Part shown: positions 13,182 to 26,971 of the stretch, piece after piece
How positions within the stretch are numbered: the first letter of the stretch is position 1
How the letters are laid out: each line of letters opens with the position of its first letter
Source of the DNA: an uncultured cyanobacterium
Lineage (GTDB): Bacteria > Cyanobacteriota > Cyanobacteriia > CACIAM-69d
Reading direction: 5' to 3'
NCBI GenBank assembly: GCA_937883785.1
Contig: CALGDE010000114.1
Location: forward strand, 1 to 64,000
Length of the DNA stretch: 64,000 nt
Made by a program: the position numbers and the translations under genes
Notes under the pieces: generated by a model
Database searches by the model: none
Told to the model about the DNA's origin: nothing
Seen by the model: the letters and a program-made list of their open reading frames with translations, nothing else

Positions 13182-13256
13182 TGGATCCGGATCCCCCCTT
13201 TAATCGGGCAGGATTGGTGGGAATTCTACCCACTTCCCCTTAATCGAAGTGCCCCC
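13182..13256. repeat. Fragments of a C-rich dispersed repeat
   Basis: GGATCCGGATCCCCCCTTTAA (its core at 13187-13203) and CCCTTAATCGAAGTGCCCCCC (core 13238-13256) resemble the GGATCCCCCC...CCTTAATAAGG arms of the element inserted in the helicase gene at 20641-20757. The copy is degenerate, and no target-site duplication is visible. Confidence 0.4.
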
Positions 13257-19547: not shown

Positions 19548-19717
19548 TTTTCCAGAGCCCTTTCCAGAGTCAATCGTCACTATTTGCTCTCCCATTCACC
19601 GGCAATTACCTGGCGGGACCATAACGATGCCGCCGTATTCCAATTGTATGAATCCCATTGGCAGACTGCCATCTTGACGAACTGTGGTTTACAAAGTGCC
19701 AGACTGAAAGGGTAACG

Positions 19718-22183
19718 GTGGGTGAAGCGGTGGCAGACAGGGCGGCAAGTAAAGTGGCAGAAAATCAGAAGGTTGCCTGGGACACTGAGGCGTGGAGATC
19801 GCTGCGGGCTACGTTGCGCCCAGGACAGCGGGCGATGGCGGATTGGACGGGCGGGCCTTTGGCGGTGTCGGCGGTGCCGGGGGCGGGGAAGTCCACGGGG
19901 ATGGCGCGGGCGGCGGCGTTGGCGATCGCCAAATTCCAATTACATTCCGCCAAAAAGCTGGTGGTGGTGACCTTTACACGATCAGCAGCGGCAAATTTAA
20001 AGCAAAAAATTCGGGCGGCGCTGGTGGAGTTGAACGTGCCGGTGCAGGGGTTTATGGTGTCGACGCTGCATGGTTTGGCATTTCAAATTGTGGGGCGATC
20101 GCGGGATTTGGCGGGGCTAGATCCCCAGGCATCGTTGGTGGTGCCGTCGCTGGATCATCGGTTAATTCGCGATTCGGTGGATCGGTGGATTGAGCGCAAT
20201 CCGATGGCGTTTCAGCAGTTGATCGAGGGCAATGGCTTTGACGGGGAGGAGGCGGAGCGGCTGCGGCGATGGTCGGTTTTGCGCACGGCAGTGTTGCCCA
20301 ATATGGCGCTGACGGCGATTCACGAGGCGAAAAGTTCAGGATTATTGCCGGACGATCTATACAAGTTGTCCCAGCTAAAGGTGGATTCCGGGCGCGTTGA
20401 TGATTTTGTTGTTGCCTATGACGGGTTGGCGATCGCCGCTGGACTTTATGAAGAATACGAACGGCTATTGCGATCGCGAAATTTGATGGATTACGACGAC
20501 GCGATTTTGGGAGCGCTGCGGGTGTTGGAAGATCCGCAGTTGCGATCGCGATGGCAGTCGCAGATTTTTGGCGTGTTCGAAGATGAGGCGCAGGATTCAT
20601 CACCGCTGCAAAATCGACTAATCTCAATTCTCGCCACCCTCCCACCTTACCAAGGGGGGACCGAGGGGGGATCCTCAGAGACTCAAGCGCTAACCAAAGA
20701 TTCTGGAAAAGGGGGCGATTCTTTGGGATCCCCCCACCCCCCCTTAATAAGGGGGGCTTTTGCTGGTGATGATTTGAATTTGATTCGGGTGGGCGACCCT
20801 AACCAGGCGATTAATTCTACGTTTACGCCTGCGGATCCGATTTTCTTTCGACGCTTTTGCCAACGTTGCGGCGATCGCGATTCTTTAGCAGAGATGAACC
20901 AGTCGGGGCGCAGCAGCGAGGTGCTCATCAAGGCGGCAAATTTTGCGTTGAACTGGATTAATCAGAAATTTGCCGAGGACAATCCTGCGTATTACAACGA
21001 CGAGCCTAAACCGGCGATCGCCCTGCCATTTCTACCCCAAACCATTTATCCCGTTGCATCGGACGATCCGCAGCCCGATGCCAACCCCGATCCCCTCGGT
21101 CCCGGTTTGGAAATCGATCGCCCCGACACCATCCACGACACGGCGGAAAATATTGCCCGGCGTGCGTTGCGATTGTTCAAGAAATATCCCAGCTACAGCG
21201 CTGCGGTTTTGGTGCGTACTAATGATCAGGGGCGATTTTTGGCGGAAACTTTTGAGGATCGTTATGGCGATCGCCTCCCGGTTTACGAGGTGGGTCGCAG
21301 CGATCGCCAGTCTCACGTGCCCGGCGAACTGCTGCGGCTGCTGCGGTTTATTGAACGTCCCCATTCCCCCGATAATCTCAAGGCGGCGCTTAAGGTGCTG
21401 GGCGATCGCAAATTAATCGAAAGCCAGGATTTGGATCGCCTTGCCAGCCGTCCCGAGGGATTTTTGTATCCCAGTCCGTTGGAGCCGCGCCATAGCGATC
21501 GCCGCCGCCAAGCCCAAAAAATTTGCACAGCCCTGTTGCGTGCCCGGCTGGCGCTAACCCCCTACAATCTGATTTCCTTTGTGTGCTTTACCCTGGGCTA
21601 TGACCCCACCGAGCTGGCCACCGCGGAAAAACTAATTGACGAATTGCGCCAGCGGGGAGCAGGGGATGGACGCCTGGGGACAATTTTGCAGCACCTGTCG
21701 CCCCTGGTTGCCAACGAAACCTTTACGCCGGTGGATGCGGAAGGGACCGCCGAATCTGCCTATATGCGATCGGGGCAGCTCACAATTATTACCATGCACA
21801 AGGCGAAGGGGCTGGATTGGGACGCGGTGTTTATTCCGTTTTTGCAGGCGAACAATATCCCTGGCAAGCCAAATCCGCCGCTGCCTGCGAATTTCCTCGG
21901 TGAAATCGACCTAGCTGAATGTATCCGCGCCCAGTTGCGCACCTATATCCAAAACCCCGAGGTGCAGGTTTTGCCAGCGTTGGAAGAGGCTTGGCGGGAG
22001 GCAAATCAATTGAAACTGGCAGAAAATTATCGGCTACTTTATGTGGCGTTAACCCGTGCTAAGCGCTACTTATATCTGGCAGCAGAACACCAAGCGCCGT
22101 TCTCCTGGAATAACCTCGACAATCTACAAGGGATGCAGTCTTGCCCTTTGGTTCAACCTTTGGAACGGGAATTTGGGTGCTAG
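19718..22183 (+). CDS. UvrD/Rep-type ATP-dependent DNA helicase with inserted repeat
   Basis: A superfamily 1 helicase of about 821 residues. Motifs in order: I AVPGAGKST, Ia VVTFTRSAAANLKQKI, II FEDEAQDSS, III VGDPNQAI, V ITMHKAKGLDWDAVF and VI LLYVALTRAKRYLYL, so the motor looks intact. No nuclease domain is visible at the C-terminus. Between motifs II and III is a 39-codon Gly/Pro-rich stretch encoded by a palindromic repeat element (20641-20757) that normal family members should lack. The start is a GTG at 19718, preceded by AAAGGG; the frame extends to a TTG at 19658. It is 30 bases upstream of the MmeI-like gene and is probably co-transcribed with it. Confidence 0.88.
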   Translation: MGEAVADRAASKVAENQKVAWDTEAWRSLRATLRPGQRAMADWTGGPLAVSAVPGAGKSTGMARAAALAIAKFQLHSAKKLVVVTFTRSAAANLKQKIRAALVELNVPVQGFMVSTLHGLAFQIVGRSRDLAGLDPQASLVVPSLDHRLIRDSVDRWIERNPMAFQQLIEGNGFDGEEAERLRRWSVLRTAVLPNMALTAIHEAKSSGLLPDDLYKLSQLKVDSGRVDDFVVAYDGLAIAAGLYEEYERLLRSRNLMDYDDAILGALRVLEDPQLRSRWQSQIFGVFEDEAQDSSPLQNRLISILATLPPYQGGTEGGSSETQALTKDSGKGGDSLGSPHPPLIRGAFAGDDLNLIRVGDPNQAINSTFTPADPIFFRRFCQRCGDRDSLAEMNQSGRSSEVLIKAANFALNWINQKFAEDNPAYYNDEPKPAIALPFLPQTIYPVASDDPQPDANPDPLGPGLEIDRPDTIHDTAENIARRALRLFKKYPSYSAAVLVRTNDQGRFLAETFEDRYGDRLPVYEVGRSDRQSHVPGELLRLLRFIERPHSPDNLKAALKVLGDRKLIESQDLDRLASRPEGFLYPSPLEPRHSDRRRQAQKICTALLRARLALTPYNLISFVCFTLGYDPTELATAEKLIDELRQRGAGDGRLGTILQHLSPLVANETFTPVDAEGTAESAYMRSGQLTIITMHKAKGLDWDAVFIPFLQANNIPGKPNPPLPANFLGEIDLAECIRAQLRTYIQNPEVQVLPALEEAWREANQLKLAENYRLLYVALTRAKRYLYLAAEHQAPFSWNNLDNLQGMQSCPLVQPLEREFGC
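20641..20757. repeat. Palindromic C/G-rich dispersed element inside the helicase gene
   Basis: The two ends are imperfect inverted repeats: CTTACCAAGGGGGGACCGAG with GGGGGGATCC on the left and GGATCCCCCCACCCCCCC with TTAATAAGGGGGG on the right, with about 50 bases between. The same C-rich motif recurs at 26872-26903 and, decayed, near 13187-13256. The length as marked is 117 bases, exactly 39 codons, and it stays open in the helicase frame. It looks like a small non-autonomous element (MITE-like) tolerated as a peptide insertion. Ends are approximate. Confidence 0.75.
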
Positions 22184-22215
22184 GATCATACTTATGTGTT
22201 GGATAAGTTTTTGTG

Positions 22216-24963
22216 ATGACTGATTCGTCTTCTGCTCAGGGACTCGCAGAATTTTGCAAGTTTTGCCAGGGGCATCTCACGGGGGATGAGAAGGGGGAGG
22301 CGCAGATTTTTTTGGATCGGTTCTTTCGGGCATTTGGACACAAGGGGGCGATCGAGGCGGGGGCGGTTTACGAGAAGCGGATCAAGAAGGGGAGCAAGAA
22401 GGGGAAAACGGGGTTTGCGGATTTGGTTTGGAAGCCGCGCGTGTTGATTGAGATGAAAAAGCGCGGGGTGGATTTATCGAAGCATTATTCCCAGGCGTTT
22501 GAGTATTGGCAGCGGGCAGTTCCTGATCGCCCGCGCTATGTGCTGCTGTGCAACTTTGATGAGTTTTGGGTTTACGACTTTGATATTCAAATTGATACGC
22601 CGTTGGAGCGGGTGACGCTGGAGGAGTTGCCGGATCGTGCCAGTGCGTTTGGGTTTATGTTGCCTCGGGAACGGCGATCGGTGTTTGGCAATAATCAGGT
22701 GGAGGTGACGGAGAAGGCGGCTCGGCGGTTGGGGAAGGAGCTTTATCCGGTGTTGCGCGATCGCCTGCAAAAGCAACAAAAGCTGTCGCGGGCTGAGGCG
22801 GATTTGATGGCGCAGCGGTTTGTGTTGCAGTGCGTTTTGGCGATGTTTGCGGAGGATCGGGGGTTGTTGCCGGACAGTTTGTTTGTGCGGTGTGTGCAGG
22901 ATTGTGTCGGTGGCGAAAGTTCTTACGATGTGATTTCGCGGGGGCTTTTTGGGGAGATGAACGCGCCGGGGATTACGGCGGCGGGGCGGTTTGCGGGGGT
23001 GGATTATTTCAATGGTGGGTTGTTTTCTACGGTGGATGGGCTGGAGCTGACGAAGGAGGAGCTGAAGATTTTGGAGGTGGTGGCGCTGGAGGATTGGAGT
23101 ATGGTGCGCCCGGCGATTTTTGGCAGCATTTTTGAGTCGGCGATCGACCAGGAGGAACGGCACGCGCGGGGGATTCATTACACATCGGAGGCGGACATTA
23201 TGAAGATTGTGCGTCCGACAATTTCGCGGTTTTGGGAGGAGCGCATTGAGCAGGCGTCCACGATTAAGGATTTGGAGGCGCTGCAAGGGGAGTTGCGGGA
23301 TTATCGGGTGTTAGATCCGGCGTGTGGATCGGGGAATTTTTTGTATTTGGCGTATCAGGAATTAAAGCGAATTGAGCAGGAGTTATTGGAGAAAATTCGT
23401 GGCAAACGAAGGTCATCCAGAGATCAAATTCAGATGGGGTTTGTGACGCCGCTACAGTTTTTTGGGATTGATATTAATCCGTTTGCAGTGGAGTTGGCGC
23501 GGGTGACGTTGATGATTGCCAGGAAGGTGGCGATCGACCGGTTGGAGTTGATTGAGCCTGCGTTGCCGTTAGATTCGCTGGATGAAAATATTGTTTGTGA
23601 CGATGCTCTGTTCACAGAGTGGCCCAAAGCTGATGCGATCATCGGCAATCCACCATTTCTAGGAGGACGAAATGTACGCTTGCAACTTGGTGACGAGTAC
23701 GTTGATCGGATGGTGAGACAATTTCCCCAGGTAAAAGACGCAGTTGATTTTTGCACCTACTGGTTTCGACTATCACACGAAAGACTAGGGAAGAGTGGAC
23801 GTGCTGGCTTAGTAGGGACAAACTCTATCAGCCAGGGGTTAAGTCGGAAACAATCACTTGACTTCATCATTAGCAACGATGGGAGCATTCATGAAGCCAT
23901 ATCAACACAGCCTTGGTCGGGTGAGGCAAACGTGCATGTCAGCATCATAAATTGGAGCAACAAGGAAAGTTCAGCCAATTACTTAGATCACCGACTTGTC
24001 GATAGTATCAACTCTTCTCTCAGCGCTTCAACCAGTGTCACAGACGCACAGCTCATACAAAGCAATTCAGGGTATAGCTTTATTGGCATTCAGCTAACAG
24101 GAAAAGGATTCTTCATCGATCTAGAAACAATGGAGAAGTGGGGTAAACAGGATCCTAAAAATTTAGAGGTTGTGAAGCTTTTCTCAATGGGCAGAAACTT
24201 AGCATCAATCCCAAATGGAGTCCCAGATAGATGGGTTGTTGATTTCAATGATCTGTCTATTGAAGATGCGATGACTTACGAAGCTCCTTTCAAACACGTT
24301 CTGGAGTATGTAAAGCCAGTCCGCGATAAGAATCGTAGGGCTGCTACTAGAAAGTACTGGTGGCAGTATGGAGAAAAGCGACCAGGCATGAGAGCAACGA
24401 CCAAAACCCTGCGATACTTCTTCGCAGTTCCGAGGGTCTCTAAGTGGGAAGTTTTTATTCCTTTTAAAAGCAAGTGGCTACCGGGAGACCTAAATGTTGT
24501 CATTGCCTCAGACGATTTCTACATCTTGGGGCTCATCACTTCAGAAACTCACCGAACTTGGGTTAAAGCCCAAAGTTCAACTTTGGAAGATCGAACTCGC
24601 TACACGCCCAAGACCTGCTTTGAAACGTTTCCATTTCCACAGACGCCACTGCTGAAGACTGTTGAGAAGATTCGAGAAACAGCGATCGCCCTCCACGAAT
24701 ACCGCAGTGAACAAATGGAACAAAAACAGTGGGGAATCACAAAGCTGTATAACGCCTACTTCGACGAACCCGCCAGCCAACTCTATAAACTCCACAAAAA
24801 GCTGGATAAATTGGTGCTCGATGCCTATGGATTTGATCCCAAGGGCGATCGCCTGGAACAGCTTTTGGAATTGAACTTGGAACTGGCAGCCAAGGAAAAG
24901 CGCGGGGAATCGGTGGTGGGTCCTTGGGCGATCGATAATCCGCCGAAACGGGACGAGAGTTAG
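22216..24963 (+). CDS. MmeI-like type IIG/IIL restriction-modification enzyme
   Basis: A 915-residue single-chain enzyme that should both methylate adenine and cut DNA. A PD-(D/E)xK nuclease signature lies at the N-terminus: D69 in FADLVWK, then E79 and K81 in IEMKKRG. A helical spacer follows (residues about 165-340). The N6-adenine methyltransferase has motif I DPACGSGNF (residues 367-375) and catalytic motif IV GNPPF (477-481). The target-recognition region follows, and the end is a conserved tail (LHEYRSEQMEQKQWGITKLYNAY). No separate specificity subunit is needed in this class. The start used is the ATG at 22216, immediately after an in-frame GTG. Base composition changes between about 23,590 and 24,660, over the recognition region. 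The recognition sequence cannot be read. Confidence 0.9.
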   Translation: MTDSSSAQGLAEFCKFCQGHLTGDEKGEAQIFLDRFFRAFGHKGAIEAGAVYEKRIKKGSKKGKTGFADLVWKPRVLIEMKKRGVDLSKHYSQAFEYWQRAVPDRPRYVLLCNFDEFWVYDFDIQIDTPLERVTLEELPDRASAFGFMLPRERRSVFGNNQVEVTEKAARRLGKELYPVLRDRLQKQQKLSRAEADLMAQRFVLQCVLAMFAEDRGLLPDSLFVRCVQDCVGGESSYDVISRGLFGEMNAPGITAAGRFAGVDYFNGGLFSTVDGLELTKEELKILEVVALEDWSMVRPAIFGSIFESAIDQEERHARGIHYTSEADIMKIVRPTISRFWEERIEQASTIKDLEALQGELRDYRVLDPACGSGNFLYLAYQELKRIEQELLEKIRGKRRSSRDQIQMGFVTPLQFFGIDINPFAVELARVTLMIARKVAIDRLELIEPALPLDSLDENIVCDDALFTEWPKADAIIGNPPFLGGRNVRLQLGDEYVDRMVRQFPQVKDAVDFCTYWFRLSHERLGKSGRAGLVGTNSISQGLSRKQSLDFIISNDGSIHEAISTQPWSGEANVHVSIINWSNKESSANYLDHRLVDSINSSLSASTSVTDAQLIQSNSGYSFIGIQLTGKGFFIDLETMEKWGKQDPKNLEVVKLFSMGRNLASIPNGVPDRWVVDFNDLSIEDAMTYEAPFKHVLEYVKPVRDKNRRAATRKYWWQYGEKRPGMRATTKTLRYFFAVPRVSKWEVFIPFKSKWLPGDLNVVIASDDFYILGLITSETHRTWVKAQSSTLEDRTRYTPKTCFETFPFPQTPLLKTVEKIRETAIALHEYRSEQMEQKQWGITKLYNAYFDEPASQLYKLHKKLDKLVLDAYGFDPKGDRLEQLLELNLELAAKEKRGESVVGPWAIDNPPKRDES

Positions 24964-26740: not shown

Positions 26741-26871
26741 AACTTCAGAGATAAAAATGAATCTAAGAACGTCAGTTCAACGAAAAGTCATCCTTACCAA
26801 GGGGAATTGGGGGAATTCTCAGGTGCTTGACCTGGTAGCGGGAAGTTTTAGTAACAAAGGATAGGGAAAGG

Positions 26872-26903
26872 CTCCCCCCTCAGTCCCCCTTGATAAAGGG
26901 GGA
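26872..26903. repeat. C-rich palindromic repeat, short copy
   Basis: CCCCCCTCAGTCCCCCTTGA followed by TAAAGGGGG. It matches one arm of the element inside the helicase gene, read on the opposite strand, with few differences, and so marks a dispersed family in this genome. Confidence 0.6.
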
Positions 26904-26971
26904 AGCGTATTTAAGCTAATTCTTTGCCGTCGAACTGACGTTAAGGGGATTTTTCCCGTTTTGCGCCTTTC

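Follow-up and report, generated by a model that had tools for sequence, protein, structure and literature searches.

The UvrD/PcrA/AdnB-like helicase encoded in this cyanobacterial DNA carries, between its motifs II and III, a palindromic insert that is very probably a copy of a non-autonomous dispersed module, tolerated in a loop of the enzyme and most likely lacking a specific role in it. The window, which is the whole stretch of DNA analysed, is 64,000 nucleotides long. An in-frame palindrome had been placed at 20641-20757 in the preliminary description, and the palindrome, its coordinates and the open frame were confirmed.

The helicase and its palindromic insert

The helicase ORF matches the Pfam families UvrD-helicase (E 2e-29) and UvrD_C (E 7e-20), and the closest structures found by Foldseek with its predicted fold are those of UvrD, PcrA and AdnB. 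The palindrome is situated between the DEAQDSS and GDPNQAI motifs, in agreement with the earlier assignment, and the reading frame runs through it uninterrupted. The net insert is about 39 codons (20641-20757), a length divisible by three. In the window helicase the loop between motifs II and III has 48 residues, compared to a median of about 11 in its homologues. Residues 333-362, which lie between a helix and the strand leading to motif III, have AlphaFold pLDDT values below 50, and the insert is predicted to be a floppy, disordered loop. The helicase is probably still active with the insert in place. Directly 3' of the helicase (22213-24963, + strand) there is a 916-aa ORF with DPACGSGNF and NPPF motifs, which resembles a type II restriction enzyme-methyltransferase fusion.

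Table 1. Positions of the helicase, its insert and the second module copy in the window
Feature	Position	Strand	Remarks
UvrD/PcrA/AdnB-like SF1 helicase ORF	19658..22183	+	841 aa; TTG start as listed
Helicase motif II, DEAQDSS	20582..20602	+	D309, E310, A311, Q312, D313 and S314 invariant (37-sequence alignment)
Free-standing (class C) copy of the ~120-bp palindromic module	20638..20761	+	In frame in the helicase; nhmmer 88-102 bits
Left hairpin CCCACCTTACCAAGGGGGG	20641..20659	.	Hairpin pattern
Inner left arm GGGGGGATCC	20665..20674	.	Pairs with 20726-20735 in the fold and the RNAalifold consensus
Inner right arm GGATCCCCCC	20726..20735	.	Sequence and fold
Right hairpin CCCCCCTTAATAAGGGGGG	20738..20756	.	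Hairpin pattern
Helicase motif III region, GDPNQAI	20792..20812	+	Columns G379-I385 invariant (37-sequence alignment)
Complete 173-bp MITE-A	26769..26941	-	Terminal repeats ACGTCAGTTCGACG / CGTTGAACTGACGT; module inside at 26783-26905; intergenic

Both hairpins of the helicase copy have the form C6-TTNNYAA-G6, and a divergent core lies between the inner arms. When folded as single-stranded DNA, the palindrome has a z-score of -2.6, and only 2 of 200 shuffled sequences fold better. An inverted-repeat search run at default settings detected no inverted pair at this locus, so the case for the palindrome is made by the hairpin pattern and the fold. The covariance model of the module family, described below, scores 105.7 bits (E 4e-27 in the window) at 20638-20761. 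These ends carry no MITE terminal repeats, the flanks being helicase coding sequence, and no target duplication is obvious at them. A search of Rfam with the module gave no family at the gathering score; the animal microRNA, frameshift-site and lncRNA matches were at chance level, all far below it.

Copies of the module and their carriers

A BLAST search of the genome with the helicase locus gave 39 matches, with relatives at E 2e-17, and a search with the second copy in the window (the 26872-26903 region) gave 19. A covariance model was built from 26 copies, the helicase locus being part of the seed alignment. It found 87 matches in the genome, both strands of the palindrome being counted, among them the helicase locus at E 3e-25. 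The hairpin pattern, with one mismatch allowed, occurs 43 times per strand genome-wide, compared to 0 for the reversed control. In total 58 distinct module copies were collected (there are about 60 in all), and many have common module ends. A decayed copy proposed at 13187-13256 did not hold up: the best that the family model offers here is an overlapping match on the opposite strand at E = 0.29.

The copies were sorted by their flanks into three classes, MITE-A (21 copies), MITE-B (9) and class C, which has unique flanks (28). In class A the module is enclosed by the terminal inverted repeats ACGTCAGTTCGAYG ... CGTCGAACTGACGT, and the whole element is 167-177 bp long in most copies. Target duplications of 4-6 bp accompany 12 of 17 copies, compared to 1.3 on average and at most 6 among 5000 shuffles. 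Class A is a MITE that has transposed. The terminal repeats of class B, GGACTTACGYAAG ... GCGTAAGTCCTG, are unrelated to these. The terminal repeats of the two carriers can be written ACGTCAGTTCGA(C/T)G and GGACTTACG(C/T)AAG. A search with the terminal-repeat pattern of class A showed 23 sites, and no full-length IS was obvious among the further sites displayed. The related copy reported at 26872-26903 is real, but its extent has to be revised, as the module there spans 26783-26905 and lies inside a complete MITE-A, whose 4-bp target duplication, CTTA, shows a one-base offset.

Shortened forms with essentially a single hairpin occur in both MITE backbones, so that the two-hairpin form may have been reduced by recombination between its hairpins or may have grown from a single one. 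Short forms of MITE-B (L032:4283 and L037) are about 90 bp long, with a reduced hairpin region and the terminal repeats GGACTTACG(C/T)AAG.

The class C copies end near CTTCCCCCC and GGGGGGCTTT; among the weaker members there are partial or diverged sequences. No target duplications were found when the free-standing copies were examined by eye, which leaves transposition of the short form a hypothesis. At two contig ends, L009 (C161) and L015 (C126), module copies adjoin one and the same sequence, AGCTATCCATTAGGCACAAGTC; this would be expected if insertion of an IS into a palindrome copy had broken the assembly. The preliminary description had proposed a non-autonomous element that dispersed in the genome and came to be tolerated as a peptide insertion. 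The number of copies, their common ends and the MITEs with target duplications agree with this spread and tolerance; however, the helicase copy itself belongs to the free-standing class without MITE ends.

The covariance model found 39 matches in the congener G001 and 0 in four genomes from other genera of the family, showing that the expansion is at the level of the genus and common to G001 and the genome of the window. Some matches were also obtained in scattered genomes of the class. Palindromes made of G and C runs can also arise by convergence, and the matches in distant genomes may be convergent.

Insertions in proteins and their age

Seven of the 28 class C copies lie in frame inside long ORFs, compared to 0 of the 30 MITE-ended (A and B) copies (Fisher p = 0.004, a guide only, because the value depends on which ORFs were counted). 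The count leaves out two class C copies, L187 (ORF of 181 aa) and L193 (copy at the very start, 361 aa), because their ORFs were not verified as genes. A class A copy, L014, next to an alpha/beta-hydrolase-like ORF was rejected as an in-gene insertion, as a likely start codon is downstream of the element. The full-length cases comprise the helicase, a Wzy_C O-antigen ligase, a U32 peptidase and two paralogous NB-ARC proteins, and half copies are found in two TPR proteins. The host proteins read the module in different frames and in both orientations, as would be expected if any stop-free frame is tolerated. In the two NB-ARC proteins (NB-ARC/TPR proteins L012 and L017) the module is situated at the same place, before the Walker B-like strand, and both read the element's opposite strand; common ancestry or two events could account for this.

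The insert is missing from the helicase, the Wzy_C ligase and Peptidase_U32 of relatives outside the genus, which have short loops at the ligase and peptidase sites. Two findings that would have spoken against a mobile origin had been named in the preliminary description, a similar linker in the orthologues of distant cyanobacteria and copies without defined ends. Neither was encountered: the helicase loop is short in most of the distant cyanobacteria, other genera lack the insert, and many copies end at the common module ends.

The helicase of the congener has a diverged module copy at the same site, with aligned flanks, and its Wzy_C ligase has also retained a diverged copy between aligned flanks. 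The helicase insertion appears to be ancestral within the genus and to have been retained. The amino-acid identity of the two helicases is 43% (19/44) in the insert and 87% (549/628) in the rest of the aligned protein. The congener insert contains an in-frame TAA at about position 500-510 of L069 (CALCTI010000428.1), which, if real, would truncate the helicase. Downstream of it the codon differences number 48, 23 and 189 at positions 1, 2 and 3, respectively, which indicates constraint. The Wzy_C gene of the same MAG has a stop outside the insert; a sequence error is therefore possible, and the TAA was given little weight. It may be an assembly error or mark a recent pseudogene or a split gene. 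Ribosome bypass, which might have been read from the TAA, was set aside in view of this Wzy_C stop.

The motif II-III loop has a median length of about 11 residues among 105 helicase loci and reaches 78. In 100 aligned homologues this gap is the most insertion-prone, with long expansions in about 21-22 sequences, compared to 12 in the next gap. The second insertion-prone gap of the family is situated after residue 437 of the window protein (12 of 100 homologues). The long state (≥22 residues) requires at least 11 changes on a FastTree tree calculated with the loop removed, an approximate figure, as FastTree is a weaker method and there was a long-branch warning that included the window's own row. 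Six long loops from other species, chosen for their repeat-like look and hence giving no measure of the share among all loops, were searched against their own genomes. Five (L041, L094, L116, L128 and L145) match many places, and the sixth, L120, has only its own locus over its own stretch among the matches listed, so that it may have weaker ones. At least five of these six expansions are thus repeats dispersed over the genome that carries them, and the loop is a recurrent landing site. The loops of other lineages share no common motif. Some are simple tandem expansions (L102, L111 and L148), and in relatives of Nostoc some loops include short palindromes as well as heptamer-like repeats. It can be proposed, tentatively and with more doubt than confidence, that the loop is a phylum-wide landing pad, reached independently by many unrelated dispersed repeats, and that, in addition, the module moves alone into protein genes.

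In the reading that is very probable, a short non-autonomous palindromic module entered the surface loop between motifs II and III in an ancestor of the genus. Several of the module's frames being nearly stop-free, its net length being a multiple of three and the loop being tolerant of disordered residues, the insertion persisted. Most insertions into genes would be lost, and those that keep the frame in exposed loops would survive and drift. Other proteins would have received free-standing copies in the same way, while the MITE family with its terminal repeats and target duplications would have been moved in trans by a putative transposase. The free-standing copies could be a separate form or trimmed MITE debris. 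In the helicase, the insert would most likely be neutral and do nothing specific. Points against this reading are that free-standing copies show no visible target duplication, that the TAA of the congener would cut the helicase short if real, and that palindromes of G/C runs can be convergent.

A variant of this explanation differs in the route of entry and has the same outcome, so that confidence in it overlaps with that in the preferred one. The helicase insert would be the remnant of a MITE-A whose terminal ~40 and ~14 bp were deleted later, selection sparing only an in-frame remnant, and the free-standing class would be debris instead of a separate mobile form. MITE-A has clearly transposed, the helicase core aligns with MITE-A cores, and the single-hairpin derivatives inside both backbones are consistent with trimming of this kind. 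However, many free-standing copies in unrelated contexts stop at about the same two positions, the module is also present in the unrelated MITE-B backbone, and the in-gene copies are confined to the free-standing class (7/28 versus 0/30 for MITE-ended copies). The deletion route is thus considered rather unlikely.

Retention of the insert in two congeneric species, its strong pairing potential with several G runs and the repeated expansion of the loop might instead suggest that it has been co-opted to modulate the helicase, for example by binding a partner or by forming a hairpin or G-quadruplex in the mRNA and so slowing translation between motifs II and III. The low identity of the insert to that of the congener, its predicted disorder, the lack of a common motif in the loops of other lineages and the absence of an Rfam family at the gathering score argue against a modulating role, which is improbable. 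An ordinary Gly/Ser/Pro linker produced by local slippage, resembling the repeat by composition only, would fit the wide variation in loop length and the simple tandem expansions in some lineages. However, it can hardly be reconciled with the full-length match to the dispersed family (E 3e-25, with the locus in the seed), the relatives found by plain BLAST (E 2e-17) or the copies that have common ends between unrelated flanks, and can almost be dismissed.

Relation to known repeats

In Nostoc, small dispersed repeats (SDRs, 21-27 nt) and heptamer tandem repeats were reportedly described by Elhai et al. in 2008. The module resembles the SDRs in being a small dispersed repeat of cyanobacteria; however, it is ~120 bp long and, as far as seen, unrelated in sequence.

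A MITE review (PMC10969869) describes the Rickettsia palindromic elements (RPEs; Ogata et al. 2000, 2002) as palindromic repeats of about 150 bp found in frame in unrelated protein genes, and the 2002 title cited there calls protein-coding palindromes a unique feature of Rickettsia. The mechanism conceivably operates in other prokaryotes, according to the review (PMC10969869). The module shares with the RPEs its character as a multi-copy palindromic family, its in-frame presence in several unrelated proteins, peptides that are seemingly tolerated by their hosts, and helicase, Wzy_C and U32 orthologues in relatives that are free of the peptide. However, the host phylum is different, and the likeness is one of kind, with no sequence descent claimed. 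Moreover, two or more MITE backbones also carry the cyanobacterial module, whose copies are mostly intergenic.

REPs have been found in DNA-repair genes, those of the UvrD/REP helicase and RecB included, and two Xanthomonas species have different REPs at about the same recB site (PMC3733652). The presence of the module in a UvrD-like helicase resembles this occurrence of palindromes in repair genes. The GTAG/CGTC REPs are 20-40 bp long and have a GTAG or CGTC tag at one end (PMC3733652), whereas the module is ~120 bp long and its ends, CTTCCCCCC ... GGGGGGCTTT, have no such tag; its identification as a REP of this type was ruled out by both features. MITE-A has the properties of bacterial MITEs: it is a multi-copy, non-coding element with terminal inverted repeats and a short target duplication. 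A cyanobacterial example, Nezha, is cited in the review (PMC10969869). The likeness to Nezha is again one of kind, and the helicase copy differs in having no MITE terminal repeats.

Protein-coding palindromes are thus already known as a kind, from the RPEs and from REPs inside genes. What is new is the cyanobacterial family itself, the fact that its module is nested in two MITE backbones, and the repeated use made of a single helicase loop. The family provides a clear cyanobacterial case, in which one genome has several host proteins and an insertion appears ancestral and retained. The reuse of one helicase loop by unrelated repeats constitutes a natural experiment on insertion tolerance across a phylum, in which neutral and co-opted insertions can be directly tested against each other in one enzyme family.
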